A stretch of 64,000 nt of DNA. Origin: Cellulomonas sp. WB94. Its GTDB lineage: Bacteria; Actinomycetota; Actinomycetes; Actinomycetales; Cellulomonadaceae. The translations under genes were made by a program, and so were the position numbers. The stretch covers positions 62,001 through 126,000 of the forward strand of contig NZ_QEES01000007.1 of assembly GCF_003115775.1 (NCBI RefSeq). Reading direction: 5' to 3'. Under the pieces are notes generated by a model. That model searched no databases. It saw only the letters and a program-made list of their open reading frames with translations, and was not told where the DNA came from. Positions 2,004 to 54,935 of this stretch are shown here, piece by piece; within the stretch, counting starts at the first letter, position 1, and each line of letters opens with the position of its first letter.

Positions 2004-3236
2004 ATGGCTATGGACCAGTCTGCCCTGCTCGACCTGCTCGCCGCATTGAAGGACACCGACGTCAGCGACCGGATCCGGACCGCGACCGAGCACCTGTATC
2101 AAGAGCTGATCGACGCCGAGGCGACCGCGGTGATCGGCGCCGGCCCCTGGCAGCGCACGCAGGCCCGCACGGCGTTGCGCAACGGGTCGCGGGACCGGGT
2201 GTTGACGACCACGGCCGGGGACCTGGACCTGCGGATCCCCAAGCTGCGCACCGGGTCGTTCTTCCCGTCCTTGCTCGAGCGGCGCCGCCGGGTCGACCAG
2301 GCACTGTTCGCGGTCGTGATGGAGGCCTACCTGCACGGGGTCAGCACCAGGAAGGTCGACGACCTGGTCAGGGCCCTGGGGGCCGACACCGGGATCTCCA
2401 AGAGTGAGGTCTCCCGGATCTGCGCGGGCCTGGACGAGGAGGTCTCGGCGTTCCGTGACCGGTCCCTGGCCGACGCGGGGTTCCCCTACGTGTTCCTGGA
2501 CGCGACGTACTGCAAGGCCAGGGTCGGGCGCCGGGTGGTGTCCCAGGCCGTGGTCATCGCCACCGGGGTCCGCGCCGACGGGCACCGTGAGGTCCTCGGC
2601 TTCGACGTCGGAGACTCCGAGAACGGCGCCTTCTGGACCAGCTTCCTGCGCTCGCTCAAGGCCCGCGGGCTGGGCGGTGTGGCGCTGGTCATCTCCGACG
2701 CCCACGAGGGCCTGAAGACCGCGATCGCCTCGGTCCTGCTCGGCTCGTCCTGGCAACGCTGCCGGGTCCACTTCACCCGCAACGTCCTCGACGCGGTGTC
2801 CAAGACGAACGCCGAGATGGTCGCCGCCGCGATCCGCACGATCTTCGCCCAACCCGACGCCGCCCACGTCGCCGAGCAGTTCGAAGTCATCGCGACCATG
2901 CTGACCCGCTCCCACCCGAAGGTCGGGCACATGCTCACCGACGCCCGCGAGGACCTGCTCGCCTTCACCGCGTTCCCCGCCAGCCACTGGAAGAAGATCT
3001 GGTCGACCAACCCCCTGGAACGACTGAACAAGGAGGTCAAACGCCGCACCGACGTCGTGGGGGTCTTCCCCAACCCCGCCGCCCTGCTGCGCCTGGCCGG
3101 CGCCGTCCTGGTCGAGGCCCACGACGAATGGGCCGCCACCGACCGCCGCTACCTATCCGAGAACTCCATGGCCCAACTCGCCACCATGACCCTGACGACC
3201 CAGGAGGTGGACCACACCGAACTCCTCACGGCATGA
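2004..3236 (+). CDS. IS256-family transposase
   Basis: The 410-residue protein is full length for the IS256 (mutator-like, Pfam Transposase_mut) family. The DDE catalytic residues are visible: D166 in 'FLDATYCKA', D232 in 'VISDAHEGLK' and E339 in 'STNPLERLNKE', with spacing typical of the family. The 'WQRCRVHFTRN' stretch between the second Asp and the Glu is also characteristic. The ATG at 2004 lies 122 bases inside the left end, and the stop is 56 bases from the right end, so no other gene fits in the element. It catalyses cut-out/copy transposition of this IS. No frameshift or stop interrupts it. Confidence 0.96.
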   Translation: MAMDQSALLDLLAALKDTDVSDRIRTATEHLYQELIDAEATAVIGAGPWQRTQARTALRNGSRDRVLTTTAGDLDLRIPKLRTGSFFPSLLERRRRVDQALFAVVMEAYLHGVSTRKVDDLVRALGADTGISKSEVSRICAGLDEEVSAFRDRSLADAGFPYVFLDATYCKARVGRRVVSQAVVIATGVRADGHREVLGFDVGDSENGAFWTSFLRSLKARGLGGVALVISDAHEGLKTAIASVLLGSSWQRCRVHFTRNVLDAVSKTNAEMVAAAIRTIFAQPDAAHVAEQFEVIATMLTRSHPKVGHMLTDAREDLLAFTAFPASHWKKIWSTNPLERLNKEVKRRTDVVGVFPNPAALLRLAGAVLVEAHDEWAATDRRYLSENSMAQLATMTLTTQEVDHTELLTA

Positions 3237-3265
3237 TCTGAGCACTGACCCGCACGGTGTCGAGA

Positions 3266-3292
3266 AACTCCACCACTCAGCGGGACGTCACC
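3266..3292. repeat. IS256 right terminal inverted repeat
   Basis: Partner of the left inverted repeat at 1882-1908. Read on the minus strand from 3292 it begins GGTGACGTCCCG. Confidence 0.85.
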
Positions 3293-3300
3293 GACGTGAG
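3293..3300. repeat. Right 8-bp target site duplication of the IS256 element
   Basis: GACGTGAG, identical to 1874-1881. Confidence 0.9.
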
Positions 3301-3788
3301 GCGACTGGAGTGATGACTGAGTCTGCGCGTGGCGAGGCGCTCGAATGCCCAGCCCGATGAGGCGGCTGACCCCCCGACTGCCGCCACGATGGTTCATCGA
3401 GTTCTGCTGGAAGGCGCACCGGTCGCTCGTCAGGCTCCCGGCTCGCACGGCGGCCGGCCGGCGTGAGTACGCCGCGCTTGGTGGAGTCCGCTCCCCCTCG
3501 GGCCGCCCGACGGCGGATCGCCCGGGTGGCGGGTGCATCGGCACCGGCGGTGTCAGGGCTCGTTGAGGGCGCCCACCTGATGACCTGGGTCAGCAGCGTG
3601 GGGGTGTACTTTAGCCACCGCAACCACTTGCAGAGAGTTACAGCAATTCTGTCCTCGTTCCGTCGCTTCCCGGATCCCATCCGTCCCATGGGTCGCATCG
3701 TGCGACCCGACCGAGCCTGGCCCTGGAGCAACCACCCTTTCCCATGGAGTGCGGCTTGCCGACCCGACCCCAGCGAAGGAGCTTCATC
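3301..3788. other. Gene-poor stretch between the IS and malQ, with a possible gene remnant
   Basis: No intact gene is convincing here. From an ATG at 3345 the plus strand reads 'LPPRWFIEFCWKAHRSLVRL', which faintly resembles the N-terminal helix of deazaflavin-dependent nitroreductases. The similarity then stops, and the frame ends at 3566 without the family core. This could be a decayed gene 5' end or chance. Bases 3600-3670 are less GC-rich than their surroundings and probably hold the malQ promoter. A perfect 8-bp inverted repeat lies at 3690-3708. Confidence 0.35.
3690..3708. repeat. Inverted repeat upstream of malQ
   Basis: GGGTCGCA (3690-3697), three-base loop, TGCGACCC (3701-3708). 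The perfect 8-bp stem ends 80 bases before the malQ start. It could be an operator for malQ or a hairpin in its leader; no regulator gene is adjacent. Confidence 0.5.
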
Positions 3789-5699
3789 GTGCGCGCAGCC
3801 ATCTCCCCCAGACGTCGGACCAGGGCTCCCGGCCTGCTACGAGCCGTTCGACGTTCGCTGTTCGACCGGGCTGGGAGTGCCCCGTACACCCTGGCCGACC
3901 TGGGAATCCCGGAGAGCTACGTCGATGCGCACGGGCATGTCCGGAACCCGCCGGCGGCAACGCTCGTTGCGGTCGCTTCGGCGATCGGCGCAGGCCCTAG
4001 GGCGGCCGAGCCGTTGGTCTGCACCCCCGGTCAGGCGCGCCCCGACCTCGACGGCAGCCTCTTCGATCTCACGGGGGCTGACGTGCCCGGGCCCGCTGGC
4101 ATCGGGCCGGAGCCGGGGTACTACCACCTGCGCACGCCGGACGGCCGGCGCCGTCTGGTGATCAGCGCACCGGAACGCTTGCCGCAGCCGGTCCGGGGCT
4201 GGGGTTGGTCGGTGCAGCTGTATGCGGCACGCTCCCGGGACTCCTGGGGCATCGGTGACTTCGCTGGCCTCGCAACGATCACTCGGGCGGCAAGGGCCGC
4301 CGGGGCCACCTCAGTCCTGATCTCCCCCGTGCACGCCGCCGCACCCGTCCCCGCGCAGCAGGCGTCCCCGTACTCGCCCGCGTCCCGGCAGTGGCTCCAG
4401 CTGCTCCACATCGCCATGGCAGACGTCCCCGGCGCCGGCGAGGTCGACCTCGCCGACCTCGAGCTGGCCGGGCGCGAGCTCAACGCCGAGCGACTCATCG
4501 ACCGCGACGCCGTGTGGAAGTTGAAGCGTTCGGCCCTCGAGCGCATCTGGTCGGCCACCAGGTGGACGCTGCCCGTCGAGCACGAGGTCTGGACAGCAGA
4601 GCACGGGCAGAACCTCACCCGATTCGCCACCTGGTGCGTGCTGGCCGAGACCTATGGCACGGGGAACTGGCGGGAGTGGCCGTCCGAGTTCCACTCCCCC
4701 GCGGGCGCGCTCGACTTCGCAGCCGAGCACACCGACCGGGTTGCCTTCTACGCGTGGGCTCAATGGGTCGCCGACACCCAGCTTGCTGCGGCCTGCCGAG
4801 CCGGCGCCGGCGTCGTGGTGGACATCGCCGTCGGGTTCGACTCCTGCAGCGCGGACGCGTGGGACAGCCAGGACGAGGTCTGCTTCGACTTCGAGGTCGG
4901 CTGCCCGCCGGACCGGCACAACGTCGACGGCCAGAAATGGGGGCTTCCCCCCTTCAACCCGCTGGCCCTCGTCGCCGCAGACTTCGCTCCATTCATCAAG
5001 ATGGTCCGCTCCGCGCTGCGCCACGCGGACGCGCTGCGCATCGACCACGTCATGCAGCTGTGGCGCCTCTTCTGGGTACCGGCGGGCGAGGGGGCAGGTC
5101 AGGGTGCCTATGTGCACTACCCGACCGAGGCGATGCTCGCGATCGTGCGCCTCGAGGCCAGCCGAGTCGGCGCGTGGGTCGTCGGGGAAGACATGGGAAC
5201 GGTGGCCGACGAGGTCCGCGACACGATGGCCCGGGACGGAATGCTCGGCTACCGGGCCGCGCTGCGCCTGCCGGTCGATCAGTTCCCGGAGGCCGCCATG
5301 GGTGCGTCCTCCACGCACGACCAGGCCACGATTGCCGGCACCCTGACCGGGTCGGACACGAACGACCTGCGCGCCATCGGCAAGGCCGCGAACTTCGAGC
5401 AGCTCGAGCAGGCGCGGCGCGAGCTGGCCGCCGCCGCGGGCGTCGACCCCGACGGTCCTATCGGACCCGAGGAGATCAGGCGTGCGGTCCTCGCCCAATA
5501 CACCCGCTTGGCTGCCTGCAAGGCCCGGGTGGTGCTGGCCTCCCTCGACGACGTCGGCGCGGTCGCCGAACGACCGAACATGCCCGGAACGGTCACCGCC
5601 TGGCCGAACTGGTGCCTGAGCCTGCCGCGGCCGGTCGAGGACATCCTGCGCGAGCCCCTTGCGCAGGAGCTGGCACAGGTCTTGGGTACGCGCGCCTGA
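3789..5699 (+). CDS. malQ: 4-alpha-glucanotransferase (amylomaltase, GH77)
   Basis: MalQ transfers maltosyl and longer alpha-1,4-glucan segments between maltodextrins and releases glucose; it acts in the cytoplasm in maltose/glycogen breakdown. The GH77 catalytic signatures are present: 'LRIDHVMQLWRLFWVP' with the nucleophile Asp, 'GEDMGTV' with the acid/base Glu, and 'SSTHDQATIAG' with the third carboxylate. The 'DSCSADAWDSQD' segment matches the family's conserved Asp-rich loop. Length (636 residues) suits actinobacterial MalQ with its extra N-terminal region. I chose the GTG at 3789 because AAGGAG ends seven bases upstream; an in-frame ATG at 3744 lacks such a site. The gene stands alone, and a hairpin follows it. 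Confidence 0.93.
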   Translation: MRAAISPRRRTRAPGLLRAVRRSLFDRAGSAPYTLADLGIPESYVDAHGHVRNPPAATLVAVASAIGAGPRAAEPLVCTPGQARPDLDGSLFDLTGADVPGPAGIGPEPGYYHLRTPDGRRRLVISAPERLPQPVRGWGWSVQLYAARSRDSWGIGDFAGLATITRAARAAGATSVLISPVHAAAPVPAQQASPYSPASRQWLQLLHIAMADVPGAGEVDLADLELAGRELNAERLIDRDAVWKLKRSALERIWSATRWTLPVEHEVWTAEHGQNLTRFATWCVLAETYGTGNWREWPSEFHSPAGALDFAAEHTDRVAFYAWAQWVADTQLAAACRAGAGVVVDIAVGFDSCSADAWDSQDEVCFDFEVGCPPDRHNVDGQKWGLPPFNPLALVAADFAPFIKMVRSALRHADALRIDHVMQLWRLFWVPAGEGAGQGAYVHYPTEAMLAIVRLEASRVGAWVVGEDMGTVADEVRDTMARDGMLGYRAALRLPVDQFPEAAMGASSTHDQATIAGTLTGSDTNDLRAIGKAANFEQLEQARRELAAAAGVDPDGPIGPEEIRRAVLAQYTRLAACKARVVLASLDDVGAVAERPNMPGTVTAWPNWCLSLPRPVEDILREPLAQELAQVLGTRA

Positions 5700-5729
5700 C
5701 CGGGGACCTGGGCCCGCATCGGCACGTAG

Positions 5730-5759
5730 GCCCGGAGCGGCCTCCTCGCGGCTCCGGGC
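5730..5759. terminator. Hairpin between convergent malQ and the BTAD regulator
   Basis: GCCCGGAGC (5730-5738) and GCTCCGGGC (5751-5759) form a perfect 9-bp stem with a 12-base loop. It lies between the malQ stop (5699) and the 3' end of the opposing gene (5822), so it can serve both. There is no U-tract, as is common in high-GC actinomycetes. Confidence 0.65.
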
Positions 5760-5821
5760 TCCACCGCCGCTGACGCCGGCTGCGGGTCGGCACGACCTCG
5801 TCGGCCCTCGTCGTGAACGAC

Positions 5822-8690
5822 TCAGATGGAGGTGCCGCGGCGATCGTGCTCGAGGGCGGTGTCTGTCGCGAGCTGCTCGACATGGGCGCACGCCGCCGGC
5901 AGGTCCCACGTCGCACCCTCAGCGAGCGCGCGTACCCAGGCCGGCTCGTCGAGCGCGGCCCGGGTGGCCGCTCGGTAGCCCTCGCCGTCCATCGGGTCCA
6001 TGCGGAAGGGTCGTAGCCGATACGCTGGGACAGGCGTCCCACAGCCCCGAGGATCCGGGCACCGTCCTCGGCGCGGCCCGCGGCGGTCGCGGCCCCCGCG
6101 GCCACGAGGAGTCCGGCCAGGCTCCCCGTGCGGTCCCCGTCGGTGCTGGCCGCCGTGACCATGCGGGCGACGCTCGCGAGGGCGCGGGTGCCCTCCCCGG
6201 CGTCGACGTGCACCTTGGCGCGCACCCAGCGCGTGCTCGCGAGGGCCCACCGGTGTCCCAGCGCCTGGGCGCGCTCCTCGGCGATGGTCAGGAGCGCCAG
6301 GGCCTGGTCGCGGTCCCCGGTGGCGCGAGCGAACTGGCCCTGCGCCATCGCGATCTCCGCCTGGATCCAGGCGCTGCCATGCTCGTCGGCCGCCTCGCGA
6401 CCGCGGGCCAGGTCCGCCGCGACCTCGTCGCCTGCCTCCCCGCGCAGCGCGCGGACGAACCCACGGAGCACCAGGCCGAGGGCGAGGCTCGGGTCGCCGG
6501 CCTCCTCGGCCGCGGGCACCAGCCGCTCGACGTCCGAGGTGACGGCGGCGACGTCGCCCATCAGGTACGCCAGAAGCGCATGCGCCAGCAGGACGCGGCT
6601 GAGCAGGGCAGGCTCGTCGGGCGGCAGTGCCGCCACCGCCGCGCTCAGCGCCGCGCGACCCTCGTCGACGTGGCCGCGCTGGTACCACCACCAGCCGACG
6701 GACGCAGCGATGCGGGCGGCCGTGCGACCGTCCCCGCGCGCGAGCGCGTGCGCCAGGGCGGCCCGGATGTTCTGCTGCTCCGCGTCGAGCCGTGCCCAGC
6801 CTGCCTCCTGCCCGGTCCCGCGCAGCAGAGGCTCGAGCCGTTCGACAAGATCGGCGACGACCCTCGCCTGGCGGTCCCGGTCCGCCAGGAGCGCCGCGGG
6901 CTCCTGCTCGTGCTCGACTGGCGCAGCGTCTCCAGCATCCGGTACCGCCCACGCTCGCGCTCCAGGACGACCAGGGACTGGGAGACGAGAGCGCGCAGCG
7001 CGCTCAGCGCCTGGCCGGAGGAGGAGCCGGCCACCGCGTCGACGGTGTCGGTGGCGAACCCGCCAGGGAAGGCGGCCAGCTGCTCGAAGAGTCGACGCTC
7101 GGCGTCGTCGAGGAGGTCCACGCTCCAGCGCACGGTCTGCACCAGCGTGCGCTGGTGGGGCGCGGCGCTGCGGCGCCCCTCGGTGAGCAGCTCGAACGGG
7201 TCCTCGACCCGGCGTGCGACCTCCGTCAGCGGCAGGGCTCGCAGGCACGCGGCAGCCAGCTCGATGGCCAGGGGCAGCCCGTCGAGACGGGTGCAGACGT
7301 GGTGGACCAGGCGACTTGTGCCGATGTCGTCGGACACGGGCGCTCCGACGAGTCGCGCTCGGTCGCGGAACAGGAGGACCGCGTCGTCGTCCAGCTCCCC
7401 CACCGGCAGGGGGCCGCACGGCAGGACCGCCTCCCCGTCCAGGCCCACGGGTTGCCGTGACGTGGCCAGCACGACGAGGTGCGGGCAGCTGGCCAGGACC
7501 TGCGCGCACCAGGCCGCGACGTCGTCGACCAGGTGCTCGCCGTTGTCGAGGATCACGGTGACCGCGCGGTCCTGCACCGCGGTGACCACGGCGTCGACGG
7601 GCCCCGCGCCGGTCAGGCTGACGTCCAGCACGTCGGCCACCTGCGCGCCGACCAGCGCGCCGTCCTGGATCCCCGCCAGCTCCACGACGGCCACCTCGCC
7701 CGGTACGAGCCCGCGCCGCAGGGCCTCGCAGACGAGCCGCGTCTTGCCCGAGCCGCCCGGGCCCACCACCGTGACCAGCCGGTGCGCCCGCAGCGCCGCT
7801 GCCAAGAAGTCCAGGTCCTCCTCCCGGCCGACGAACGTGGTCAGCGCGGGCCCGAGGCTCGGCGGTGACGGCGCGGGCGGTGACGAGCGACGCGGCTGCT
7901 CGGCGACCGAGCCCGTCGGCCGCCGGCTGGGCAGCAGGCCCGGGTCGTGCCGCAGCACGCGCGCCTGCAGCTCGCGCAGCTCTGGTCCAGGGTCGACGCC
8001 CAGCTCGTCGGCGTGCAGCAGCCGGACGTTCTCGATGACCGAGAGCGCCTCCGCCTGTCGCCCGGCGGCGTACAGCGCCCGGACCTGGGCCGCCCGCACC
8101 CCCTCGTCGAGCGGCTCGGCCTGCACCACCGGCAACAACCGCTCCACCGCCTCGTCGGGCCTCCCCAGCCGCAGCACCAGGTCCGCCGCGAGCTCGGCGG
8201 CGGTTCGGCGTCGGCGCTCGAGACGCATGGCCTCCTCGCGCGCGAAGGGGCGCTCGACGTCGGCATAGGCGGCGCCGTGCCAGAGCGCGAGGGCGCCATC
8301 CAGAAGGCTGACGGCGCCCGTGAGGTCCTCGGCGGACCGCGCCACCTTGGCCTCGGCGAGCGCGCGCTCGAACCTGCGGGCGTCGACGGCCTCGTCGGGC
8401 AGCGCGAGCAGATAGCCCGGTGACCGGGTGAGCAGCAGCTGCCAGGCCCCGTCGACCACACCGGGCTCGAGGATCCGCCGCAGCCGCGAGACGGCGGGCA
8501 GCAGCGCGGCGGGCCCGACGTCCTCACCCCAGACCCGCATCGCGAGCAGGTCCGCCGGCACCACGTGGCCGAGGTTCAGCACCAGGGCCGCCAGGGCGGA
8601 ACGAAGGCGTGGGGGCACGACGAGATCGTCCGGCGTGCCACCGACCCGCACCCGGACCGGGCCCAGGGCCCGGACACCGATGCCCTCCAT
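5822..8690 (-). pseudogene. BTAD/AAA/TPR transcriptional activator (AfsR/SARP-like), two frameshifts
   Basis: Read across three frames, the protein has an OmpR-like DNA-binding domain (from 'IGVRALGPVRVRVGG'), a BTAD domain, an NB-ARC-type ATPase with P-loop 'GPGGSGKT' and 'VILDNGEHL', then TPR-like helices and a C-terminal 'AACAHVEQLATDTALE' tail. Frame one runs from ATG 8690 to about 6922, where 'YRMLETLRQ' breaks. Frame two runs to about 6009 and frame three ends at 5822. Each break is repaired by adding one base, the second inside a C run, so they are single-base deletions. Either the gene is decaying or the sequence has errors. Such activators often control neighbouring secondary-metabolism or oxidoreductase genes, here the divergent FAD enzyme at 8877. 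Confidence 0.8.
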
Positions 8691-40926: not shown

Positions 40927-41268
40927 TCAGTCAGACGAGGCACGCCGCCGCGTGCTCCGCCGGGACGAACGCGGGCCCGCGGCGGCACTCGAGCGCCCTG
41001 CCCCCGAGAGTGCAGCGGATGCGCCGAGCATGAAGCCGAAGTTGTACCAGCCGCCGTTGTTGTGGACCTCGTAGATGTTGACGTCCGAGTTGAAGAGCGA
41101 GACCACGAACGTGATCGGGCTGATCGCGCCGTGCCACAGTCCGAGCCAGAACCCCGCCAGGTCCGGGGCGTCCGCCACAGCAGCGGTGTTCGGGCCGGCG
41201 GCGCATGCCGCGAGCACGAGGACCAGGACGAGGAGCCCAGCGGCTCGCGTCACGCGCCGACGCGTCAT
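40927..41268 (-). CDS. Small lipoprotein-like membrane protein
   Basis: The 113-residue product begins 'MTRRRVTRAAGLLVLVLVLA' and continues into a lipobox-like 'LVLAACAAG', so it may be exported and lipidated at Cys26 or so. A central stretch 'GFWLGLWHGAISPITFVVSL' and 'GGWYNFGFMLGAS' is conserved-looking and hydrophobic; the tail is Arg/Ser rich. Its function is unknown. The ATG overlaps the stop of the flavodoxin gene (ATGA), so the two are cotranslated. Confidence 0.75.
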   Translation of the reverse strand: MTRRRVTRAAGLLVLVLVLAACAAGPNTAAVADAPDLAGFWLGLWHGAISPITFVVSLFNSDVNIYEVHNNGGWYNFGFMLGASAALSGAGRSSAAAGPRSSRRSTRRRASSD

Positions 41269-41813
41269 CGCGCGGCCTCCCCCGCGGTCCCGGTCGTGAG
41301 CTCCTCGGCGATGTCCTTCGCCCACTGCTCGATGTCGGCCCAGTCGCGGAAGTCCCCAGCCGGCATGATCGCCCGCGCAGCCGGCAACCGTCGCAGCGCC
41401 TTCTCGGGAAGGGTCAGGCTGCTGGGATCCAGCGCACCGAAGAAGCCCCGGTGCTGGCGCGGGTGGACCGCTGCAAGGAGCTCCGCGGTCTCCTTCGGCT
41501 CGGACGCCTCGCGCAGGTCTTTGCCCTCGGCGTCGGTGGGCTCGGTGCCCAGCGGGCCGCTGCTGAACAACCAGACCGGGCGGGTCGCAAGGAGCTCGCG
41601 GTGGCTCGCGACGAACTCCGCGGCAGGCTTGAGCCAGTGGCCCATGTAGACGGCGCTCCCGATGACGAACGCGTCGTAGCCGTCGATCGCGCCGGCGTCC
41701 TGGACCGGGCGGACTGCGACCCGTTGACCCGCCGCTGTGAGGGTGACGGCGATGCGCTCCGCGATCCCCTGCGTGGAACCGTGCTTGCTGGCGTAGAGCA
41801 CGAGCATCGACAT
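41265..41813 (-). CDS. Flavodoxin-domain protein (protoporphyrinogen oxidase HemG-like)
   Basis: The 182-residue protein has the FMN phosphate loop 'YASKHGSTQGIAERI' and 'YDAFVIGSAVYMGHWLKPA', typical of the flavodoxin_5/HemG group. The later 'PVWLFSSGPLGTEP' also matches. It should bind FMN and act in electron transfer in the cytoplasm or at the membrane. HemG-like activity is one possibility; no other haem gene is near. It overlaps the small lipoprotein-like gene downstream by four bases. Confidence 0.86.
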   Translation of the reverse strand: MSMLVLYASKHGSTQGIAERIAVTLTAAGQRVAVRPVQDAGAIDGYDAFVIGSAVYMGHWLKPAAEFVASHRELLATRPVWLFSSGPLGTEPTDAEGKDLREASEPKETAELLAAVHPRQHRGFFGALDPSSLTLPEKALRRLPAARAIMPAGDFRDWADIEQWAKDIAEELTTGTAGEAAR

Positions 41814-41976
41814 GCGACTGCCTCCCCATCGACCGGTAGCTCTGAGTCAACCAGAGTCCGACGCCCGCCGTCCGGTGGTTGACCACCCCGCAGCCACCGG
41901 TCTGGCGCACCCCGGGCGTGTCGCCGCGATGCGCGCGACGATGGGTACGACAGACGAGCCTGAGAGGAGCGCCGCC

Positions 41977-42258
41977 ATGACCCACACCTGGCACGTGACC
42001 ATCAATCTCTTCGACACCGACGACCTGAAGGCCGACGGGGTGGTCACCAAGGCCCACGCCGTCCTCACGACGTCGGCCGGCACGACCCTCAACGGCTACG
42101 GGCGCGCCCGCCGCGCCCCGGGCGACCCTGACGTCCCGGAGATCGGCGAAGAGCTCGCGTCCGCCCGCGCACTGCGCGACGTGGCCGACCGGCTGCTCAA
42201 GGCGACGTCCGACGACATCTCCCAGCTCGAGCACCACGAGGTGCATCTCCCGCAGTAG
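41977..42258 (+). CDS. DUF1876 (dsRBD-like) protein
   Basis: The 93-residue protein shows 'HTWHVTINLFDTDDLKADGV', 'AHAVLTT', 'LNGYGRARRAPGDPDVPEIG' and 'ARALRDVADRLL', which is the DUF1876 pattern common in actinobacteria. The fold resembles a double-stranded-RNA-binding domain but the function is unknown. ATG 41977 follows GAGAGGAG. It stands alone between divergent and co-directional genes. Confidence 0.88.
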   Translation: MTHTWHVTINLFDTDDLKADGVVTKAHAVLTTSAGTTLNGYGRARRAPGDPDVPEIGEELASARALRDVADRLLKATSDDISQLEHHEVHLPQ

Positions 42259-44344: not shown

Positions 44345-44704
44345 TCACACGCCGGCGCTCGGCTCCTGCGGCCCCGGGTGGCCGGCGACGAGGGCTGTGT
44401 CCACCCCCACAGCTCCGAGCTTCGCGGCACCCCCAGGTGACCCGAGGGGCGCCGAGCGCCCGGGGAGGGTCTCCTCGAAGAACCGCGCGTTGTCCGCGAG
44501 GAAGGGCAGCTGGATCCCCGGGAGGTCGTCCTCGTAGTAGATCGCCTCGACCGGGCACACCGGCTCGCACGCACCGCAGTCCACGCACTCGTCCGGGTGG
44601 ATGTACAGCGTGCGGGCTCCCACGTAGATGCAGTCGACGGGGCACTCCTCGACGCAGGCGCTGTCCTTCACGTCGATGCATGGCGCACCGATCACGTAGG
44701 TCAT
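44345..44704 (-). CDS. fdxA: Ferredoxin with two cluster motifs
   Basis: The 119-residue protein has the N-terminal pattern '[20 protein letters not shown]', in which an Ala-Cys replaces the first CxxC and suits a 3Fe-4S centre. A standard 4Fe-4S motif, '[16 protein letters not shown]', follows. This is the actinobacterial 7Fe ferredoxin type, used by redox enzymes including P450s and nitrogen-oxide metabolism. The tail after residue 75 is proline- and glycine-rich. It is upstream-independent but co-directional with the NirK-like cluster, whose CopD-like gene ends 58 bases upstream of its start. Confidence 0.92.
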
Positions 44705-44761: not shown

Positions 44762-45202
44762 TCAGCTCACCGGCAGCGCGGTGGCCAGGAGCACGACGAC
44801 GAACGAGCCGAGCAGCGACGAGACCGCGAGGGCCCGCGCGACGACCGTGCGCCCGGCGCTGTTCGCCCAGCCGTGCAGCCCGGCAGCGAGCATCACGAGC
44901 ACGAACGCGACGAGCTTGCCGGCGAGGGTCCGCCCGTACCCGGGCTGCGCGAGGGCGCTCCACGTGACCCCCTTGTGCGCGGCGAGCGCGACACCGGTCG
45001 CCACCTGCAGCGGGATCAGGACGATGACGGTCGCGATGCCGAACCGCATCCCCAGGGTCCGCATCAGGCCGGCGCGGTCGGTCGCCTCGAGCCGCCGCCG
45101 GGCGGCCGGCAGCACCAGCGCCGAGATCGTCAGCTGACCGCCGAGCCAGACGACGGCGCCCAGCACGTGGACGAACCGCACCAACGACCACAGCCCGAGC
45201 AC
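44762..45202 (-). CDS. CopD-like four-helix membrane protein
   Basis: The 146-residue protein has four membrane helices and the CopD/DUF4149-like start 'SLVRFVHVLGAVVWLGGQL', with His residues that can bind copper or haem. Copper-resistance D proteins import copper; many short homologues have unknown roles. The GTG start at 45202 directly follows the TAG of the NirK-like gene (TAGGTG), so the genes are translationally linked. A copper supply role for the oxidase upstream is a reasonable inference only. Confidence 0.78.
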   Translation of the reverse strand: MLGLWSLVRFVHVLGAVVWLGGQLTISALVLPAARRRLEATDRAGLMRTLGMRFGIATVIVLIPLQVATGVALAAHKGVTWSALAQPGYGRTLAGKLVAFVLVMLAAGLHGWANSAGRTVVARALAVSSLLGSFVVVLLATALPVS

Positions 45203-46612
45203 CTAGTACGCCTCGACGATGCCGTGGGCGCCCCGTTCGCCGTCGACGACGGCATGGTCGGTGAACGGGTAACGACCGGGCTCCGGGAGCACGAGCTCGA
45301 CGAACCCTCCTTGTGCGGGCGCGAGGTCCATCACCTGCGAGGCACCCTGCTCGGCATTGCCGGCCTTCAGGCGGTAGGCGCCCTCGGCGTAGACCGTGTC
45401 GAACTGGGCGCCGACGACGTGGAAGGCCGTCCCCCGCTGCGGGCCCGCGTCGACGACCCAGACCCGCAGCCGTGACCCTGCCTTGACGCGGATCGGCGCA
45501 TGGACGTACTGGTCGACGTACCCGTTGAACACGAGGGCGTCCGGCGTCTCGGCGGCGATCTTCGCCTCGTCCGCCGTCCCGTCCTGCGGGCCGAGGTACA
45601 GCTCGGACTGCACGAGCACGACCTCCGTGTCGACCGCCGGGAGGTTCGGCGGGTCGATGATCACGGCGCCGTACATCCCGTTGGCGATGTGGAGGGACAT
45701 CGGCATCGTGCTGCAGTGGTAGAGCCAGGCACCTGAGTAGCGCGCGACGAACTGGTACGTCAACGACTGGCCGGGGTCGAGCGTGCGCATCGGGACGTCC
45801 GGGGCGAGCGAGCCCGCATGGAAGTCGATCCCGTGGCCCAGGTCCGCATCGTTGACGAACGTGATCGTGAAGACGTCGCCGACGCGGCCGTGCAGCGTCG
45901 GTCCGGGCGCCGTCCCGTTGTAGGTCCACAGCGTCTGCCGGACGCCGGGAGCGACCTCGACCACGGTGTCTCGCACCGCGATCGTCAGCCGGTGCTCGGT
46001 GGCCCCAGCGGCTGGCTGCAGAGTCGGGTCGTACGGTCGCCAGTCCGGTCCCGGAGCGGCCTGGAAGTCGATGACGGGCGCCGCAGCGCCCGAGGTCGCG
46101 GTCGCCATTCCACCCATGTCGTGCCCCGAGCCCGCACCCGCACCCGCAGCACCGGTCACGACGATGCTCAGCGTCATCCCCGCGGCCCGGTGCCCGGGGA
46201 CGCTGCACCACCCCTCGATCGAGGCTGTCACCGGGCCGACGTCGAGGTTCGTGGAGCCGCCCGCGGCGAGCAGCGGCGTCTGCTGGCCGGTCGCAAGGAC
46301 GAGGTCGTGGCGCATCGCGTCGGTGTTCGTGACGGCGAGCACCAGCCGCGTACCGGACGGCACCTCGATCACCGACGGCGTGATCCGCATCCCGGCCAGG
46401 GTCACCGCAACCGTCTGGGTGCCGCCGGCTCGGACGACCGCGCGAGGATCGCCCGCGGCGGAGCCGGATCCCCCGCCCAGCGCGACGACCAGGGCGACGA
46501 CCAGCATCATCGCGCCAAGCACTGTGCCCCACAGCAGACCCCTCCGGTCTTCGGCGGGCGCGGGTGCCGCGGGCTGCTCGGTCAGGGGCGCCGTCGCGTC
46601 GGTGGCGGTCAT
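45203..46612 (-). CDS. nirK: NirK-like copper nitrite reductase with extra N-terminal cupredoxin
   Basis: The 469-residue protein has an N-terminal membrane helix (about 28-46). A first cupredoxin domain carries a likely type 1 site ('MRHDLVLATG', 'GWCSVPGHRAAGM'). Two more cupredoxin domains follow as in copper nitrite reductase. Type 1 and 2 ligands appear in 'GHGIDFHAGS' (with the catalytic Asp), 'LYHCSTMPMSLHIANGMYG' and 'YPFTDHAV', and the second-sphere His in 'TAFHVVGAQ'. It would reduce nitrite to NO at the outer face of the membrane. Laccase-like multicopper oxidase activity is less likely, since no three-copper His cluster is seen. Upstream are NnrS-like, MIP18 and Fe-S regulator genes. 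Confidence 0.8.
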   Translation of the reverse strand: MTATDATAPLTEQPAAPAPAEDRRGLLWGTVLGAMMLVVALVVALGGGSGSAAGDPRAVVRAGGTQTVAVTLAGMRITPSVIEVPSGTRLVLAVTNTDAMRHDLVLATGQQTPLLAAGGSTNLDVGPVTASIEGWCSVPGHRAAGMTLSIVVTGAAGAGAGSGHDMGGMATATSGAAAPVIDFQAAPGPDWRPYDPTLQPAAGATEHRLTIAVRDTVVEVAPGVRQTLWTYNGTAPGPTLHGRVGDVFTITFVNDADLGHGIDFHAGSLAPDVPMRTLDPGQSLTYQFVARYSGAWLYHCSTMPMSLHIANGMYGAVIIDPPNLPAVDTEVVLVQSELYLGPQDGTADEAKIAAETPDALVFNGYVDQYVHAPIRVKAGSRLRVWVVDAGPQRGTAFHVVGAQFDTVYAEGAYRLKAGNAEQGASQVMDLAPAQGGFVELVLPEPGRYPFTDHAVVDGERGAHGIVEAY

Positions 46613-47802
46613 CGGGTCGACCCCGCGGGCTGTGCACTGCCCCGCGGTCGCACCGACGTCGCACGTCGTGCTTGCGCGACCGCCGTGATGGACGACCCGA
46701 GGAAGAGCAGGATCGCGACCTCCGTCCCCACGCCGCCGGCGCGCCACCACGCGGCGAGACCGAGCGCGTCGCCGAGCACCACCCGCACCAGGAGCGAGAC
46801 GTGGAGCAGGGCCACATGCGCGTAGAACCACCCGCGGAACGGGAGGCGGACCCGCATCACAGCGGGCACGATCACCGGTGCGTGGCCGAAGATCATCGAC
46901 ATCACGAAGCCCAGGAAGACCGCATGCAGCGCGGCGTCGTAGACCGCGACGCTCACGCCGAGGTCCCCGGCCAGGAGCCAGATGACCCCTCCCACGAGCA
47001 GCCACACGTACCCGGCCAGCAGGCACACCGCCATGAACCGCGTGACACCGGCGATCTTGACGGTCCGCCGCGCGACGTCGTGCAGCGCCCCCCAGACCGC
47101 CAGCCCGACCATCCCGGCGCCGACGAGCCGGACGCCGACCTCCGTCGCCCCTCCCGGCATCGTCGTGAGCACGAGTCCGGCACCGAACAGCACAGCGGCG
47201 AGCAGGAACTGGCGGACCGAGGTGCGCGTGAGCATCGCGACGCGTGCCAGCTCGAGCCGCTCGCCGAGGATCGTCAGCACGAGGAAGCCTGCGATCCACG
47301 GCACCAGCCGCGGCAGCGTCCAGCCCGTCAGCCAGAGGAGGGTCGCGACGTACCAGCAGACCGCGCCGGCGGCCATGACCCGCAGGTGCAGCGCGGGCTG
47401 GATGCGGTGGACGACGACGTAGACGACGACAAGCACGATCGACGCCACGCACAGCAGGAGCCGCCCGACGACGGGAGGCAGGCTGACCAGGACGGCGAGG
47501 CCGCCCACACCGGCGAGCGCGGGCGCCGCGTAGGCCCATCCGCGACCGAGCGCCACGGCCCGCTCGAGCGAGATCACGGTCCCCAGGAACCCGAGCGCCA
47601 TGAGTGGTCCGTGGTCCGCGGCGGTTGTCGCCAGAAGTGTCGGGACGGGCAGTCCGAGCAGGAGCAGACCGCCCCACAGTGCCGCCAGCAGGCAGACCAG
47701 CCCGGCAAGCAGGAGGGGGATGCGGTGGCGAGGGACGGCGGGCGCCAGGCGGGACGATGCGCCGGCGGCAGGGCGAGGGCCGGACTGTGCGGACGTCACC
47801 AT
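46609..47802 (-). CDS. Polytopic membrane protein, NnrS-like
   Basis: The 397-residue protein has about twelve membrane helices. Histidines sit inside or beside helices ('DHGPLMALGFLGTVISLERA', 'ALHAVFLGFVMSMIFGHAPV', 'YAHVALLHVS'), which resembles the haem-copper NnrS proteins linked to NO stress, though similarity is distant. It starts at ATG 47802 (GTG 47799 also possible), overlapping the MIP18 gene by seven bases, and overlaps the NirK-like gene by four. The tight packing implies a shared role in nitrogen-oxide or copper metabolism. A NorB-like reductase subunit is not supported by the motifs I see. Confidence 0.7.
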   Translation of the reverse strand: MVTSAQSGPRPAAGASSRLAPAVPRHRIPLLLAGLVCLLAALWGGLLLLGLPVPTLLATTAADHGPLMALGFLGTVISLERAVALGRGWAYAAPALAGVGGLAVLVSLPPVVGRLLLCVASIVLVVVYVVVHRIQPALHLRVMAAGAVCWYVATLLWLTGWTLPRLVPWIAGFLVLTILGERLELARVAMLTRTSVRQFLLAAVLFGAGLVLTTMPGGATEVGVRLVGAGMVGLAVWGALHDVARRTVKIAGVTRFMAVCLLAGYVWLLVGGVIWLLAGDLGVSVAVYDAALHAVFLGFVMSMIFGHAPVIVPAVMRVRLPFRGWFYAHVALLHVSLLVRVVLGDALGLAAWWRAGGVGTEVAILLFLGSSITAVAQARRATSVRPRGSAQPAGSTR

Positions 47803-48134
47803 CCGAACGCCTGCTTGGTCTCGGCGGTCATCATGTCGGGCGTCCACGTCGGCACGTGGGTCAGCACGACCTCGACGCGGTCGACCGCGCCGCCCGCGAG
47901 GAGCACGCGGCGCACCTCGTCGGTCAGGTACTCGCCGAGCGGGCACGCCGGCGTCGTCGTCGTCAGGACGACGCCCGCGACCCGGTCGTGGACGTCCAGC
48001 CCGTAGACCAGCCCGAGCGAGACGATGTCGATGCCGAGCTCGGGGTCGATGACGTCGCGCAGGGATTCGCGGAGCTGGTCGGCCTCGGTCCCGGGACCGA
48101 GCAGGCGCGTCACGGACAGCAGGTCGCGGCTCAT
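47796..48134 (-). CDS. MIP18/DUF59 iron-sulfur assembly-type protein
   Basis: The 112-residue protein has the MIP18 (DUF59) core 'RDVIDPELGIDIVSLGLVYG', 'VVLTTTTPACPLGEYLTDEV' with the conserved Cys, and ends 'TPDMMTAETKQAFGW', a typical tail. These proteins help assemble or deliver Fe-S clusters. It overlaps the upstream Fe-S-type regulator (ATGA) and the downstream membrane protein, so it is central to a five-gene operon. Confidence 0.9.
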   Translation of the reverse strand: MSRDLLSVTRLLGPGTEADQLRESLRDVIDPELGIDIVSLGLVYGLDVHDRVAGVVLTTTTPACPLGEYLTDEVRRVLLAGGAVDRVEVVLTHVPTWTPDMMTAETKQAFGW

Positions 48135-48907
48135 GCCGCTCCCCCGGTCCCGGCCGCGTCCGTGGTGCCGGCCGGGGAGACGTGGGCGAGGCAGAGCCCC
48201 GGCCGGACGAACGGTTCGAGACGGATCGATGCGTGGGGCGCGCCCATCTGCTCCAGGGCACCCTGCATGAGTCCGAGATGGACGCCGCAGACGACGTCGG
48301 AGTGCTCGACGGCAACCTCGCGGAAGGGGCACCGGTGCAGCTCGATCACGGTGCCGCGCACCCCAGGGCCATCGCCGTCCTGCGAGGCGGGGGCGTGGAG
48401 CGATGCGCTGACCCGCGGCGCGAATCCCACCTCGTCCAGCAGGGCGACGATGCGGGCGACGCCGTGCTCCGCGTCCACCGGCCCGTTGGCAGGGCCGTCG
48501 GAGCCGACGACCGTGCGACCCCATCGCCGGCCGGCCTCAGCAGCTGCGCTCCCCGCTGTCGGTGCGCCCGGTGCCGACACCGACGCACCCGCGTCGATCG
48601 TGCTCGCCAGGATCCCGGCCAGCAGCTTGTACGAGTCCGCCTCGGCGGCAGGCGCTGCCGCGGATGCGCGGAACAGCACGCGCGGGCGACCGGGCGTGGT
48701 CCGCGCCTCGATTGAGGCGTCGACGAGGCCGGCCTCGACGAGCTGGTCCAGATGCGTGCGCACCGTGTTGGGGTGAAGTCCGATCTGGGCGGCGATGGCC
48801 TGGACGTCCTGGGCGCCCGGGACGGCGCGCAGCACCTCGACGATGGCCACCCGGCTCACGCCGGCGAGCGCCTTGTGGGACGAGAGGTCGATCGGTTCGG
48901 AGGGCAC
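48131..48907 (-). CDS. ArsR-like HTH regulator with C-terminal cysteines (SufR/COG2345 type)
   Basis: The 258-residue protein has a winged HTH at about 10-80 ('SRVAIVEVLRAVPGAQDV', 'IGLHPNTVRTHLDQLVEAGL'). Its C-terminal domain has Cys residues in 'HRCPFREVA', 'DVVCGVHLGL' and 'GLCLAHVS', the spacing of Fe-S-binding SufR-like regulators. It probably senses iron-sulfur state, oxygen or NO. Its promoter region (48908-48987) is AT-rich and contains TCTGTAGT direct repeats. It heads the operon with MIP18, NnrS-like and NirK-like genes and is divergent from the DUF2249 genes, so it likely controls both directions. Confidence 0.85.
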   Translation of the reverse strand: MPSEPIDLSSHKALAGVSRVAIVEVLRAVPGAQDVQAIAAQIGLHPNTVRTHLDQLVEAGLVDASIEARTTPGRPRVLFRASAAAPAAEADSYKLLAGILASTIDAGASVSAPGAPTAGSAAAEAGRRWGRTVVGSDGPANGPVDAEHGVARIVALLDEVGFAPRVSASLHAPASQDGDGPGVRGTVIELHRCPFREVAVEHSDVVCGVHLGLMQGALEQMGAPHASIRLEPFVRPGLCLAHVSPAGTTDAAGTGGAA

Positions 48908-48987
48908 GGTCTGTAGTTTTCACTGGATCTGTAGTAAAAACAACCCGCACCCCGTACGCGCCCGATCCGAGACCCCCAGGAGCTCGC
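48908..48987. promoter_or_regulatory. AT-rich divergent promoter with TCTGTAGT direct repeats
   Basis: TCTGTAGT occurs at 48910-48917 and 48928-48935, 18 bases apart, followed by TTTTCAC and AAAAACA. This is the most AT-rich spot for kilobases. It lies between the Fe-S-type regulator and the DUF2249 gene and is a good candidate for promoter plus operator of both. CAGGAG before 48988 is the ribosome site of the latter. Confidence 0.65.
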
Positions 48988-49287
48988 ATGCCCCTCGACG
49001 CCGACAGTCCCGCACTCGCACCTTCCGCTTCACCAGCGCCGACGCTCAGCGGTGGCCGCCCCCTGCATGAGCTCGACGTCCGGACGCTGCCGCACGGCGG
49101 GCGGCACGAGATCATCTTCGCCAGCCTCGACGCTCTCGAGCCCGGCGAGGCCTTCGTCATCCTCAACGACCACGACCCGAAGCCTCTGCGCTACCAGACC
49201 GAGACGCTGTGGCCGGACGTCTTCACGTGGGACTACCTCGAGGCCGGGCCGGCCCTGTGGCGCGTCGCGATCACCCGTGCCCGCTGA
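48988..49287 (+). CDS. DUF2249 protein 1
   Basis: The 99-residue protein has the DUF2249 core: 'LDVRTLPHGGRHEIIFASLD', 'FVILNDHDPKPLRYQ' and 'WDYLEAGPALWRVAI'. The conserved His and 'NDHDPKPL' strand suggest a metal- or ligand-binding alpha/beta fold; such proteins commonly occur with haemerythrin and nitrogen-oxide genes. No enzyme activity is established to my knowledge. Its end overlaps the next gene by 11 bases. Confidence 0.85.
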   Translation: MPLDADSPALAPSASPAPTLSGGRPLHELDVRTLPHGGRHEIIFASLDALEPGEAFVILNDHDPKPLRYQTETLWPDVFTWDYLEAGPALWRVAITRAR

Positions 49288-49759
49288 GGCCGCGGACGTC
49301 GTCGACGGGCTGAGCCGCGTCCTGTCGCGGGCGTGCCGTCAGCTCGCGGAGGCCGGCCAGCCGCAGCGAGCCGGCCGCCTGGCGGCCGATGGCTGGGTCC
49401 TGCTCCGCCGCACCCACCCCGTCCAGGCGCAGCGCCTCGACGGCACCATGCACCATGCCGCGCGTCTCGAGCAGCAGCTCGAGACGTCCGCGGGACCCGA
49501 CCGAAAGGACCGACCTGTGCCTGTCACCGACCGAGTCGTCGATGTCCGTACCGAGATCCCCCGCACCCGCCACGAGCTGATCTTCTCGACGTTCGCCACG
49601 CTGCCAGCGGGCACCGCGTTCATCCTGGTGAACGACCACGACCCGAAGCCGCTCTCCTACCAGCTGGCCGCGGAGAACCCCGGCGAGTTCACGTGGGAGT
49701 ACCTCGAGGAGGGCCCCGAGGTCTGGCGCGTGCGGATCGGTCGCACCGGTCCGGCCTAG
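49277..49759 (+). CDS. DUF2249 protein 2 with N-terminal helical domain
   Basis: The 160-residue protein starts at GTG 49277 inside the end of the previous gene. An N-terminal helical region (about 1-75; 'DGLSRVLSRACRQLAEAG', 'QRLDGTMHHAARLEQQLE') leads into a second DUF2249 domain ('PRTRHELIFSTFATLP', 'FILVNDHDPKPLSYQ', 'WEYLEEGPEVWRVRI'). The two DUF2249 domains in tandem genes look like a duplication. The stop shares the CTAG palindrome with the stop of the convergent GGDEF-EAL gene. Confidence 0.85.
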   Translation: MPAEAADVVDGLSRVLSRACRQLAEAGQPQRAGRLAADGWVLLRRTHPVQAQRLDGTMHHAARLEQQLETSAGPDRKDRPVPVTDRVVDVRTEIPRTRHELIFSTFATLPAGTAFILVNDHDPKPLSYQLAAENPGEFTWEYLEEGPEVWRVRIGRTGPA

Positions 49760-54051: not shown

Positions 54052-54666
54052 TCAGGTGACCGTGATCTCCGCGAACATGCCGGCCGCATAGTGCCCGGGC
54101 AGGTTGCAGACGAGCTCGTACCTGCCCGCGGGGAGGTCAAGCGTCACCCAGCCGGTGGCCCCGGGCGCAATGCCGCTGTCCCCGCTCCCGCCACCTGCGT
54201 CAGCCACCTCGCCGAGGCTGCCGGACTCGTCGATCCGGCGGTCCGTTCCGGCGACCCGCGAGCCGGCACGCTGGTCGCCGTCGAGCGGCAGGACGACCAG
54301 CTCGTGGTTGCGCATCCCCGCGTTCGTCACGACGAACGACACCGTGCCGTGAGGAACTGTCGTCCGGTCGAGGTGCAGGTACATGCTGGCTGCCGATCTG
54401 TCGTTCCCACGCATCATCGGCCCGCCCATGTCCCCCACCACGGCGTGGACGACCGTGCCCGGAAGGTCCGGCACCGAGCTGTCGGTACCGGACCTCGGAC
54501 CGAGCATCCCCGCGCGACCGCCGTTGCCGCCCCAGGTCACTGCGCGGGAGCTGTCGTGGTTCGCACTGCTCCACGCGACGACCGCCCCGGCCGACCCGAG
54601 CAGCAGCGCCACCGCCGCGACGAGGCCGGCGATCAGCCGGCCCCGTGGCGTCACGACAGCCATCAT
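54052..54666 (-). CDS. Exported cupredoxin-like protein
   Basis: The 204-residue protein has a membrane anchor or signal (about 10-31, 'LIAGLVAAVALLLGSAGAVV') and a C-terminal blue-copper-like domain with 'GMRNHELVVLPLDGDQ', 'RYELVCNLPGHYAAGMFAEI' (Cys, His, Met ligands) and the His in 'RNHEL'. It probably binds copper and works in electron transfer or copper storage outside the membrane. A Met- and His-containing 'GDMGGPMMRGND' loop adds to the metal theme. It overlaps the SHOCT gene (ATGA) upstream. Confidence 0.85.
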   Translation of the reverse strand: MMAVVTPRGRLIAGLVAAVALLLGSAGAVVAWSSANHDSSRAVTWGGNGGRAGMLGPRSGTDSSVPDLPGTVVHAVVGDMGGPMMRGNDRSAASMYLHLDRTTVPHGTVSFVVTNAGMRNHELVVLPLDGDQRAGSRVAGTDRRIDESGSLGEVADAGGGSGDSGIAPGATGWVTLDLPAGRYELVCNLPGHYAAGMFAEITVT

Positions 54667-54935
54667 CGGCCTCCTCGCGCCGCGATCAGTGCCGCGCGAT
54701 GGCTCTGATAGGTCTCCAGGTCGATCTCCCCGGCAGCGAACCGCCGGTCCAGGATGTCGACAGCTGAGTCCGGTCCCCCGAACCGCGGCGGAGCACTCGG
54801 TGTCGGCCCAGCGTGGCCGCTCGAGGGGAGCAGTCGCAGGACGAGCCAGATGATCAGTGCGATCAAGGCGATCCAGAACAGCCCCATGAAGATCCAGCCG
54901 ACTCCAGTCATTCCGCCGCCATACCAACGCATCAT
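54663..54935 (-). CDS. SHOCT-domain small membrane protein
   Basis: The 90-residue protein has one membrane helix (about 10-35, 'GWIFMGLFWIALIALIIWLV') and a C-terminal SHOCT helix pair 'AVDILDRRFAAGEIDLETYQ'. SHOCT proteins have no settled function. The start ATG 54935 has an alternate Met nearby. It heads the operon SHOCT-cupredoxin-response regulator-kinase-(GGDEF-EAL) and is divergent from the permease gene. Confidence 0.85.
   Translation of the reverse strand: MMRWYGGGMTGVGWIFMGLFWIALIALIIWLVLRLLPSSGHAGPTPSAPPRFGGPDSAVDILDRRFAAGEIDLETYQSHRAALIAARGGR

Follow-up and report, generated by a model that had tools for sequence, protein, structure and literature searches.

A predicted copper nitrite reductase module in Cellulomonas sp. 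WB94 with an oxidase-fold membrane partner and a candidate operator

A five-gene operon in a 64,000-nucleotide stretch of the Cellulomonas sp. WB94 genome (hereafter the window; RefSeq assembly GCF_003115775.1, contig NZ_QEES01000007.1, positions 62,001 to 126,000) appears to encode a nitrite reduction module that combines a predicted copper nitrite reductase (NirK), a membrane protein whose model has the fold of heme-copper oxidase subunit I, and an iron-sulfur (Fe-S) type regulator preceded by a conserved candidate operator. The module is of a known kind, that of actinobacterial NirK, with the separate oxidase-fold partner and a MIP18-family protein as the variant. In the reading that we favor, with somewhat better than even confidence, the module is tethered to the membrane and derepressed by nitric oxide (NO), its oxidase-fold partner either giving electrons or guarding against NO, and MIP18 together with DUF2249 proteins serving Fe-S upkeep.

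The operon lies on the minus strand in the order regulator, MIP18, “NnrS-like” membrane protein, NirK, and CopD-like protein, with neighboring genes overlapping by 4 bases or abutting; an 80-base gap separates the regulator from two divergent plus-strand DUF2249 genes. All genes named in a preliminary description of this DNA are present on the strands given there, and the overlapping arrangement is confirmed.

A predicted copper nitrite reductase

The copper protein (positions 45203 to 46612, minus strand) consists of an N-terminal helix (approximately residues 25 to 45, placed by eye), a cupredoxin domain, and a two-domain NirK core, as judged from structure matches and ligands. Its best structure matches are solved nitrite reductases: the core matches AniA (1kbv; E value of 4.6e-41), and from residues 76 to 78 onward the protein aligns with the longer, N-terminally extended NirKs 6tfd (three-domain) and 2dv6 (E value of 2e-38). 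In an alignment of the window NirK with 13 relatives, from which one cut-off copy (L059) was left out, all 14 sequences retain the ligands of the catalytic type 1 copper (H260, C300, H308, and M313) and of the type 2 copper (H265, H299, and H453), both sets aligned with AniA, as well as the catalytic residues D263 and H398. The N-terminal cupredoxin keeps its four ligands (H102, C136, H141, and M146) in all 14 too, a domain that also matches Cupredoxin_1 at 36.5 bits (cut-off, 27). Computation thus supports the assignment of this protein to NirK by its active-site residues, and the conversion of nitrite to NO is its predicted activity; what had been described as a NirK-like oxidase is borne out at residue level.

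Two other copper proteins were noted along the way. A secreted cupredoxin with plastocyanin and SoxE Pfam matches, possibly a soluble copper electron carrier, lies about 8 kb off at 54052 to 54690. Outside the actinobacteria, Pseudomonas aeruginosa plasmid pBT2436 (locus L072, 7977 to 8840) encodes a NirK-like “multicopper oxidase domain” protein that is 39% identical to the core of the window NirK; its gene is flanked by a transposase gene on one side and an aminoglycoside resistance gene on the other. P. aeruginosa plasmids supply 13 of the 15 plasmid matches listed.

Membrane partners with a predicted oxidase fold

Actinobacterial NirKs have an N-terminal cupredoxin, often together with a membrane domain of about 400 residues whose function is given as unknown in the account of Decleyre et al. 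(2016; PubMed Central [PMC] accession number PMC4770552). We modeled this NirK-fused domain from a Georgenia species and, alongside it, the window's NnrS-like protein (46609 to 47802, minus strand), obtaining AlphaFold models with mean confidence (pLDDT) values of 90.5 and 87.3, respectively, the latter with 12 helices. The top Foldseek match for both models is CcoN of cbb3 oxidase (E value of 9.7e-5 for the fused domain and 0.012, not under 0.001, for the NnrS-like protein). VIA-align, applied as a second look at the Foldseek matches, gives Z scores against CcoN of 30.9 for the fused domain and 29.0 for the NnrS-like protein (8smr_E, 353 aligned, 3.6 A), and against NO reductase 4xyd of 29.5 and 26.5, respectively. 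The models therefore support a heme-copper oxidase subunit I fold common to the two proteins. Agreement at the sequence level is weak: COX1 (PF00115) matches only two of the 29 fused domains aligned (from 54 listed), with a best E value of 1.7e-4; one genome (G018) has an 18.7-bit PF00115 match, under the cut-off, inside its NirK fusion frame; and the profiles of the NnrS-like protein and the fused domain match each other with a probability of 57% over 133 columns. We met no fold for the NirK-fused domain in the open-access PMC literature, a scope that leaves most subscription papers outside and carries no claim of absence from print.

Conserved histidines in both proteins are few. Alignments of the NnrS-like protein (one of 14 members, the other of 21 of 51 matches) agree on H64, H293, and H334 as invariant, with H307 present in 21 of 21 sequences in one and incomplete in the 14-member one; in the fused domain, H40 and H171 are invariant. 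In the models, H64, H293, and H334 fall in helices 2, 10, and 11 (H307 in helix 10), and H40 and H171 fall in helices 2 and 6. The heme and metal ligands of a binuclear center usually lie in helices 2, 6, 7, and 10. Because the invariant histidines occur only in helices 2, 10, and 11 or 2 and 6, the full active-site histidine set of a heme-copper oxidase or NO reductase is not conserved in either protein, as judged by helix position. Going by helix number, H64 and H293 would occupy the low-spin heme site of an oxidase.

Membership of the NnrS family itself is rejected: the window protein has no PF05940 match, only 2 of 14 members match (best E value of 0.31), and a profile comparison with Sinorhizobium meliloti NnrS, which scores PF05940 at 380 bits, gives the same verdict. 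The window protein in fact matched no family in the family scans, so the label “NnrS-like” can be justified by fold and topology at most. S. meliloti pSymA carries, close to NnrS and norB-like genes, a 452-residue membrane open reading frame (L154, 18232 to 19590) with no Pfam family and a weak resemblance to the NirK-fused domain (probability of 35% by profile comparison).

The last gene of the operon (44762 to 45202, minus strand) encodes a small membrane protein with kin beside NirK elsewhere. Its matches to CopD (16.4 bits; cut-off, 32.1) and DUF2269 (21.9 bits; cut-off, 28) both fall under the Pfam thresholds, and its earlier designation as CopD-like is kept here for a weak likeness.

The regulator and its candidate operator

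The regulator (48131 to 48907, minus strand) has a winged helix-turn-helix (HTH) of the ArsR class (Pfam HTH_20, 32.6 bits; cut-off, 27) and a C-terminal domain in which all 20 aligned regulators keep C193, C207, C239, and H210; a script found the same three-cysteine spacing in 55 of 57 nirK-linked members and in 28 of 28 others. As described in PMC12343034, Corynebacterium glutamicum ArnR binds a [4Fe-4S] cluster through C179, C193, and C223 with a conserved histidine nearby, releases DNA on nitrosylation, and targets narKGHJI and hmp. Computation thus supports the Fe-S type of regulator already proposed for this locus, putatively ArnR/SufR-like, with ArnR as the closest characterized NO sensor by cysteine pattern. 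The same analogy favors NO over oxygen, the two signals that had been suggested: oxygen sensing is less likely because ArnR is reported in that source not to be an O2 sensor.

Applied to 54 regions upstream of regulator genes, a Gibbs search returned a single motif of 22.6 bits, compared with 8.6 to 9.0 in three shuffled sets. At least 11 of its 20 consensus letters are found in 46 of the 54 regions (17% of shuffled regions) and at least 12 in 41 of the 54 (4% of shuffled regions). Its arms pair about an axis, AC-N10-GT, with 5.2 of 8 positions complementary on average across 41 sites; shifted axes give 1.2 to 3.3. When right arms were re-dealt among sites, the observed mean was reached in 2 of 1,000 trials, a control weakened by the relatedness of the sites, and permuting columns gave a score for the dyad axis above the observed one in 1 of 200 cases. 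The motif usually holds a −10-like TACANT, and a repressor bound there could thus occlude the promoter.

In the window, the corresponding dyad, GTTTTTAC-N10-GTGAAAAC (48916 to 48941, minus strand), includes a −10-like TACAGA(T), has arms complementary at 7 of 8 positions, and occurs in this exact pattern at one place in the genome. Taken alone it is unremarkable, since an equal arm pair arises in 36 of 2,000 shuffles at a spacer of 10 and in 274 of 2,000 at spacers of 4 to 16; the case for an operator therefore rests on the relatives. Similarly, because a loose palindromic pattern finds 7 genome places and its control finds 6, only weighted models are informative. With these qualifications, computation supports the dyad as a conserved candidate operator, newly described here. 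The preliminary description had placed sensing at a direct repeat of TCTGTAGT (48910 to 48935, plus strand; copies at 48910 to 48917 and 48928 to 48935), which overlaps the dyad. The pair is present, but we reject it as the operator: the nearest relatives (L032, L074, and L076) keep one ACTACA there, and it is the dyad-symmetric element that is conserved.

Recurrence of the gene set in relatives

The regulator has a match in 33 of the 59 relatives searched, and NirK lies near it in 14 of 40 fetched loci, one per genome and thus in 14 of the 59 relatives, most commonly as a DUF2249 gene diverging from regulator, NnrS-like, and NirK genes in that order. We also examined the best 80 of 450 public NirK loci, mostly named as actinobacteria, with several short contigs that limit the counts to the available flank. 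Among these, NnrS-like proteins accompany NirK at 53, DUF2249 at 48, members of the regulator family at 46, CopD-like proteins at 26, MIP18 at 3, and ferredoxin at 2. Recurrence in both sets shows that the association of these genes is not due to chance.

The membrane domain of about 400 residues shares one open frame with NirK in 69 of the 80 public loci and lies in a different frame in 4; it was not found in the other 7, two of which start near a contig end. The window belongs with the exceptions. There, and in L032, L074, L075, and L082, MIP18 is present and the fused domain is absent, and in L076 and L081 these searches found neither; searching the rest of the genome of the window did not turn up the fused domain either. 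L032 is nearly a copy of L074, and the others are close relatives, so this pattern may represent one event.

The window's MIP18-family Fe-S assembly protein (47799 to 48134, minus strand) scores 62.4 bits against PF01883 (cut-off, 23.5). The divergent DUF2249 proteins (PF10006; cut-off, 29.5) are encoded on the plus strand at 48988 to 49287 (94.5 bits) and 49277 to 49759 (97.0 and 98.5 bits in two scans), the second, with a GTG start, overlapping the first and bearing an N-terminal extension. An actinobacterial FdxA-type ferredoxin (44345 to 44704, minus strand; NF045480, 163.7 bits; cut-off, 125) follows 57 bases downstream of the operon, and its membership of the transcription unit is uncertain. 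Farther along, an Rv2632c-like protein (41971 to 42255; 94.7 bits; cut-off, 25) adjoins a flavodoxin-domain protein (41265 to 41813). The Rv2632c/Rv1738 family is tied to hypoxia and NO in mycobacteria.

The earlier remark that DUF2249 recurs with NO metabolism agrees with DUF2249 genes beside nitrate and nitrite respiration genes in Thermus (DrpA and DrpB) and in haloarchaea (PMC6282519 and PMC11218638). A haloarchaeal protein described within this pair of sources joins an Fe-S carrier nucleoside triphosphatase (NTPase) to DUF2249, and this fusion, together with the presence of MIP18 here, links DUF2249 with Fe-S proteins.

NO handling and predicted regulon

No NO reductase had been visible at the locus. 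A genome-wide search with PF00115, which we take to cover NorB, returned CtaD only and no NorB-type protein, in a search run without a NorB positive control; a search of the genome for globins was likewise negative, Hcp and flavodiiron proteins not having been sought. Across 15 genomes with NirK clusters, that of the window included, PF00115 has exactly one match in 12; the exceptions are G018 (one match plus the weak one in its NirK fusion), G051 (fragments only), and G054 (none). NirB, for reduction of nitrite to ammonium, is present in the genome of the window (1016.8 bits; cut-off, 578.35).

One paralogue of the regulator, matched in two pieces, was found in the same genome directly upstream of narK-, narG-, and narH-type genes. 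There, the narG coding sequence is divided between two overlapping frames, with the break at six consecutive G (C2:419116-422789; L062, approximately 3100 to 6865), through either a sequencing error or a broken gene. A different palindrome, TTTGA...TCAAA (L062, 8306 to 8331), lies between this paralogue and the narK-type gene and is perhaps the paralogue's own operator.

A sequence-only model built from the 41 sites lists two matches in the genome of the window at E values of up to 10: the operon's own site and one ahead of a dimethyl sulfoxide (DMSO) reductase operon (E value of 0.024). The latter (C2:1509475-1509500; L176, 6476 to 6501) is about 140 bases upstream of genes for dmsA (1127.8 bits; cut-off, 777.7), dmsB (255.7 bits; cut-off, 214.1), the membrane protein encoded next, without a family match, and a DmsD-like chaperone under its cut-off. 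In addition, an operator-like palindrome extends over the start of a third DUF2249 gene with a CGC motif (C2:1372524; L172, 7504 to 7908), where the weight matrix scores 20.4 on one strand and 18.1 on the other, the next-best score in the 15-kb stretch being 3.1. In the relatives, 9 of 14 genomes have a match at an E value of up to 1, for a total of 13 matches, 9 of which are training sites at nirK clusters; one of the remaining four is in G019, and three lie at places with no recognizable genes. In G019 (L063, 7756 to 12806), an FdxA gene follows a second regulator paralogue, and operator-like sites scoring 32.4 and 27.3 lie near a DUF2249 gene and genes resembling, by eye, those for molybdenum cofactor (Moco).

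Discussion

We infer NO as the inducer, repression as the mode of control, and the electron path and Fe-S upkeep from the parts assembled above, as follows. By analogy with ArnR and SufR, the regulator would carry a [4Fe-4S] cluster on C193, C207, and C239 and sit on the dyad, where it would cover its operon's promoter and perhaps that of the divergent DUF2249 pair. Under low oxygen and a build-up of nitrite, a little NO would nitrosylate the cluster, releasing the repressor and turning the operon on. Helix-tethered NirK, whose catalytic residues are in place, would then reduce nitrite to NO outside the cytoplasm, and electrons from the quinone pool could reach its cupredoxin domain through the oxidase-fold protein, the CopD-like protein, or both; in most relatives, NirK itself includes an oxidase-fold domain. 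Maintenance or repair of Fe-S clusters under NO, that of the sensor included, might fall to MIP18 and the DUF2249 proteins. Because neither a NorB-type protein nor a globin was found, NO would exit the cell or be handled by something unrecognized. Much of the preliminary description survives in this scheme, namely, the nitrite/NO module and the Fe-S regulator, and its sensing site and its family label for the membrane protein do not.

Several points weigh against this reading. Enzyme activity, cluster, and DNA binding are all predictions, and the conserved histidines of the membrane proteins were assigned by helix number. NirK scores under the equivalog cut-off of TIGR02376 (Cu_nitrite_red; 147.7 versus 296.3 bits), and although this is still the top family of that library, we do not claim membership of so narrow a model. 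In Hyphomicrobium denitrificans, the N-terminal copper is described as too distant from the core for efficient transfer, and a mutant without it had higher activity (Decleyre et al., PMC4770552). The window's own site scores an E value of only 0.23 in the model scan, and the site at the third DUF2249 gene is not listed by that scan. The nirK-linked regulators are clustered in their tree (13 label changes versus 23.8 in shuffles), but a single clade for all of them is rejected. Finally, the cysteines of the regulator also fit a SufR-type protein.

This last point opens an alternative in which the regulator senses Fe-S or iron supply, making nitrite reduction depend on the status of Fe-S assembly, with MIP18 as a target. 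Mycobacterium tuberculosis SufR, Rv1460, has the same three-cysteine pattern (C203, C216, and C244) and controls suf genes (PMC6034842), and MIP18 lies directly downstream of the regulator. The match to the NCBIfam SufR model (TIGR02702) is weak, however, at 21.4 bits against a cut-off of 178.8 and over the HTH part only; the paralogue in the same genome sits on nar genes, the further predicted targets are DMSO reductase and DUF2249 rather than suf genes, and MIP18 occurs in just 3 of the 80 public clusters. We consider this alternative unlikely.

Improbable, too, is a role for NirK in nitrite detoxification or in NO signaling through positive feedback on its own repressor, instead of respiration, with the membrane proteins protecting the enzyme and not feeding it. 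NirB, the split narG, and the failure to find a NorB-type or globin NO sink would all suit such a role, but the like operator site before the DMSO reductase operon points to anaerobic respiration, and the membrane tether and oxidase-fold partner suggest a link to an electron transport chain.

That sink might instead be the oxidase-fold protein or the NirK-fused domain, acting as a divergent NO reductase and taking nitrite to nitrous oxide (N2O) without NorB. The Z scores to 4xyd, the two PF00115 matches among fused domains, the lack of detected NorB or globin, and the placement of the domain by fusion beside the source of NO are in keeping with this, but CcoN scores slightly above NO reductase, the full set of binuclear-center ligands (by the helix positions given above) is not conserved, and a shared fold shows no function; we regard the idea as doubtful and quite improbable. 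A related two-in-one machine, in which the oxidase-fold domain both passes quinol electrons to the cupredoxin and captures or reduces NO, so that nitrite goes to N2O under a product-induced repressor, is likewise a long shot. Least probable by far is an oxidase of phenols or metals: the CopD-like neighbor and general multicopper oxidase Pfam matches suit it, but D263 and H398 are invariant, NirK is the top NCBI family (E value of 4.8e-43 versus 4.7e-12 for copper_res_A), and NirK residues are described as not conserved in laccases (Decleyre et al., PMC4770552).

The locus bears on two questions, the electron source of actinobacterial NirK and the fate of its NO. NirK without NO reductase is common in actinobacteria: of 28 actinobacterial genomes considered by Decleyre et al. 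(PMC4770552), half lack nos only, and half lack both nor and nos. Both questions become open to direct tests with a predicted fold for the fused domain and its companion, and with a readable candidate operator and its possible further targets.

Among known systems, the nearest to the window enzyme is the actinobacterial cupredoxin-NirK (PMC4770552), with which it shares the cupredoxin, the NirK core, and clade II, and in which the membrane domain varies by species; the window NirK differs in lacking that domain and in having a separate oxidase-fold protein, a CopD-like protein, and MIP18 alongside. The fused domain, of unknown function in that account, is here given a predicted fold, the 12-helix subunit I fold of CcoN and NorB (Z scores of 26 to 31), from which it and the NnrS-like protein differ in that the active-site ligand set is not conserved and Pfam COX1 is absent or under the cut-off. 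With NnrS (PF05940), the NnrS-like protein has in common many membrane helices, conserved histidines, and a place in N-oxide gene sets, but no significant sequence match. DUF2249 proteins have N-oxide respiration neighbors here as they do for DrpA/DrpB and in haloarchaea, where a sensor role has been proposed and function is likewise described as unproven (PMC6282519 and PMC11218638). The regulator resembles SufR/Rv1460 (PMC6034842) in its HTH and three putative cysteine ligands but adjoins nirK, whereas SufR controls suf, and it falls under the SufR cut-off. To ArnR (PMC12343034) it is alike, by residue pattern, in its winged HTH, C-terminal domain, three cysteines, and histidine, and in its link to nitrate and nitrite respiration, the paralogue adjoining nar; ArnR controls narKGHJI and hmp, whereas the window regulator stands beside nirK in a genome in which no globin was found.

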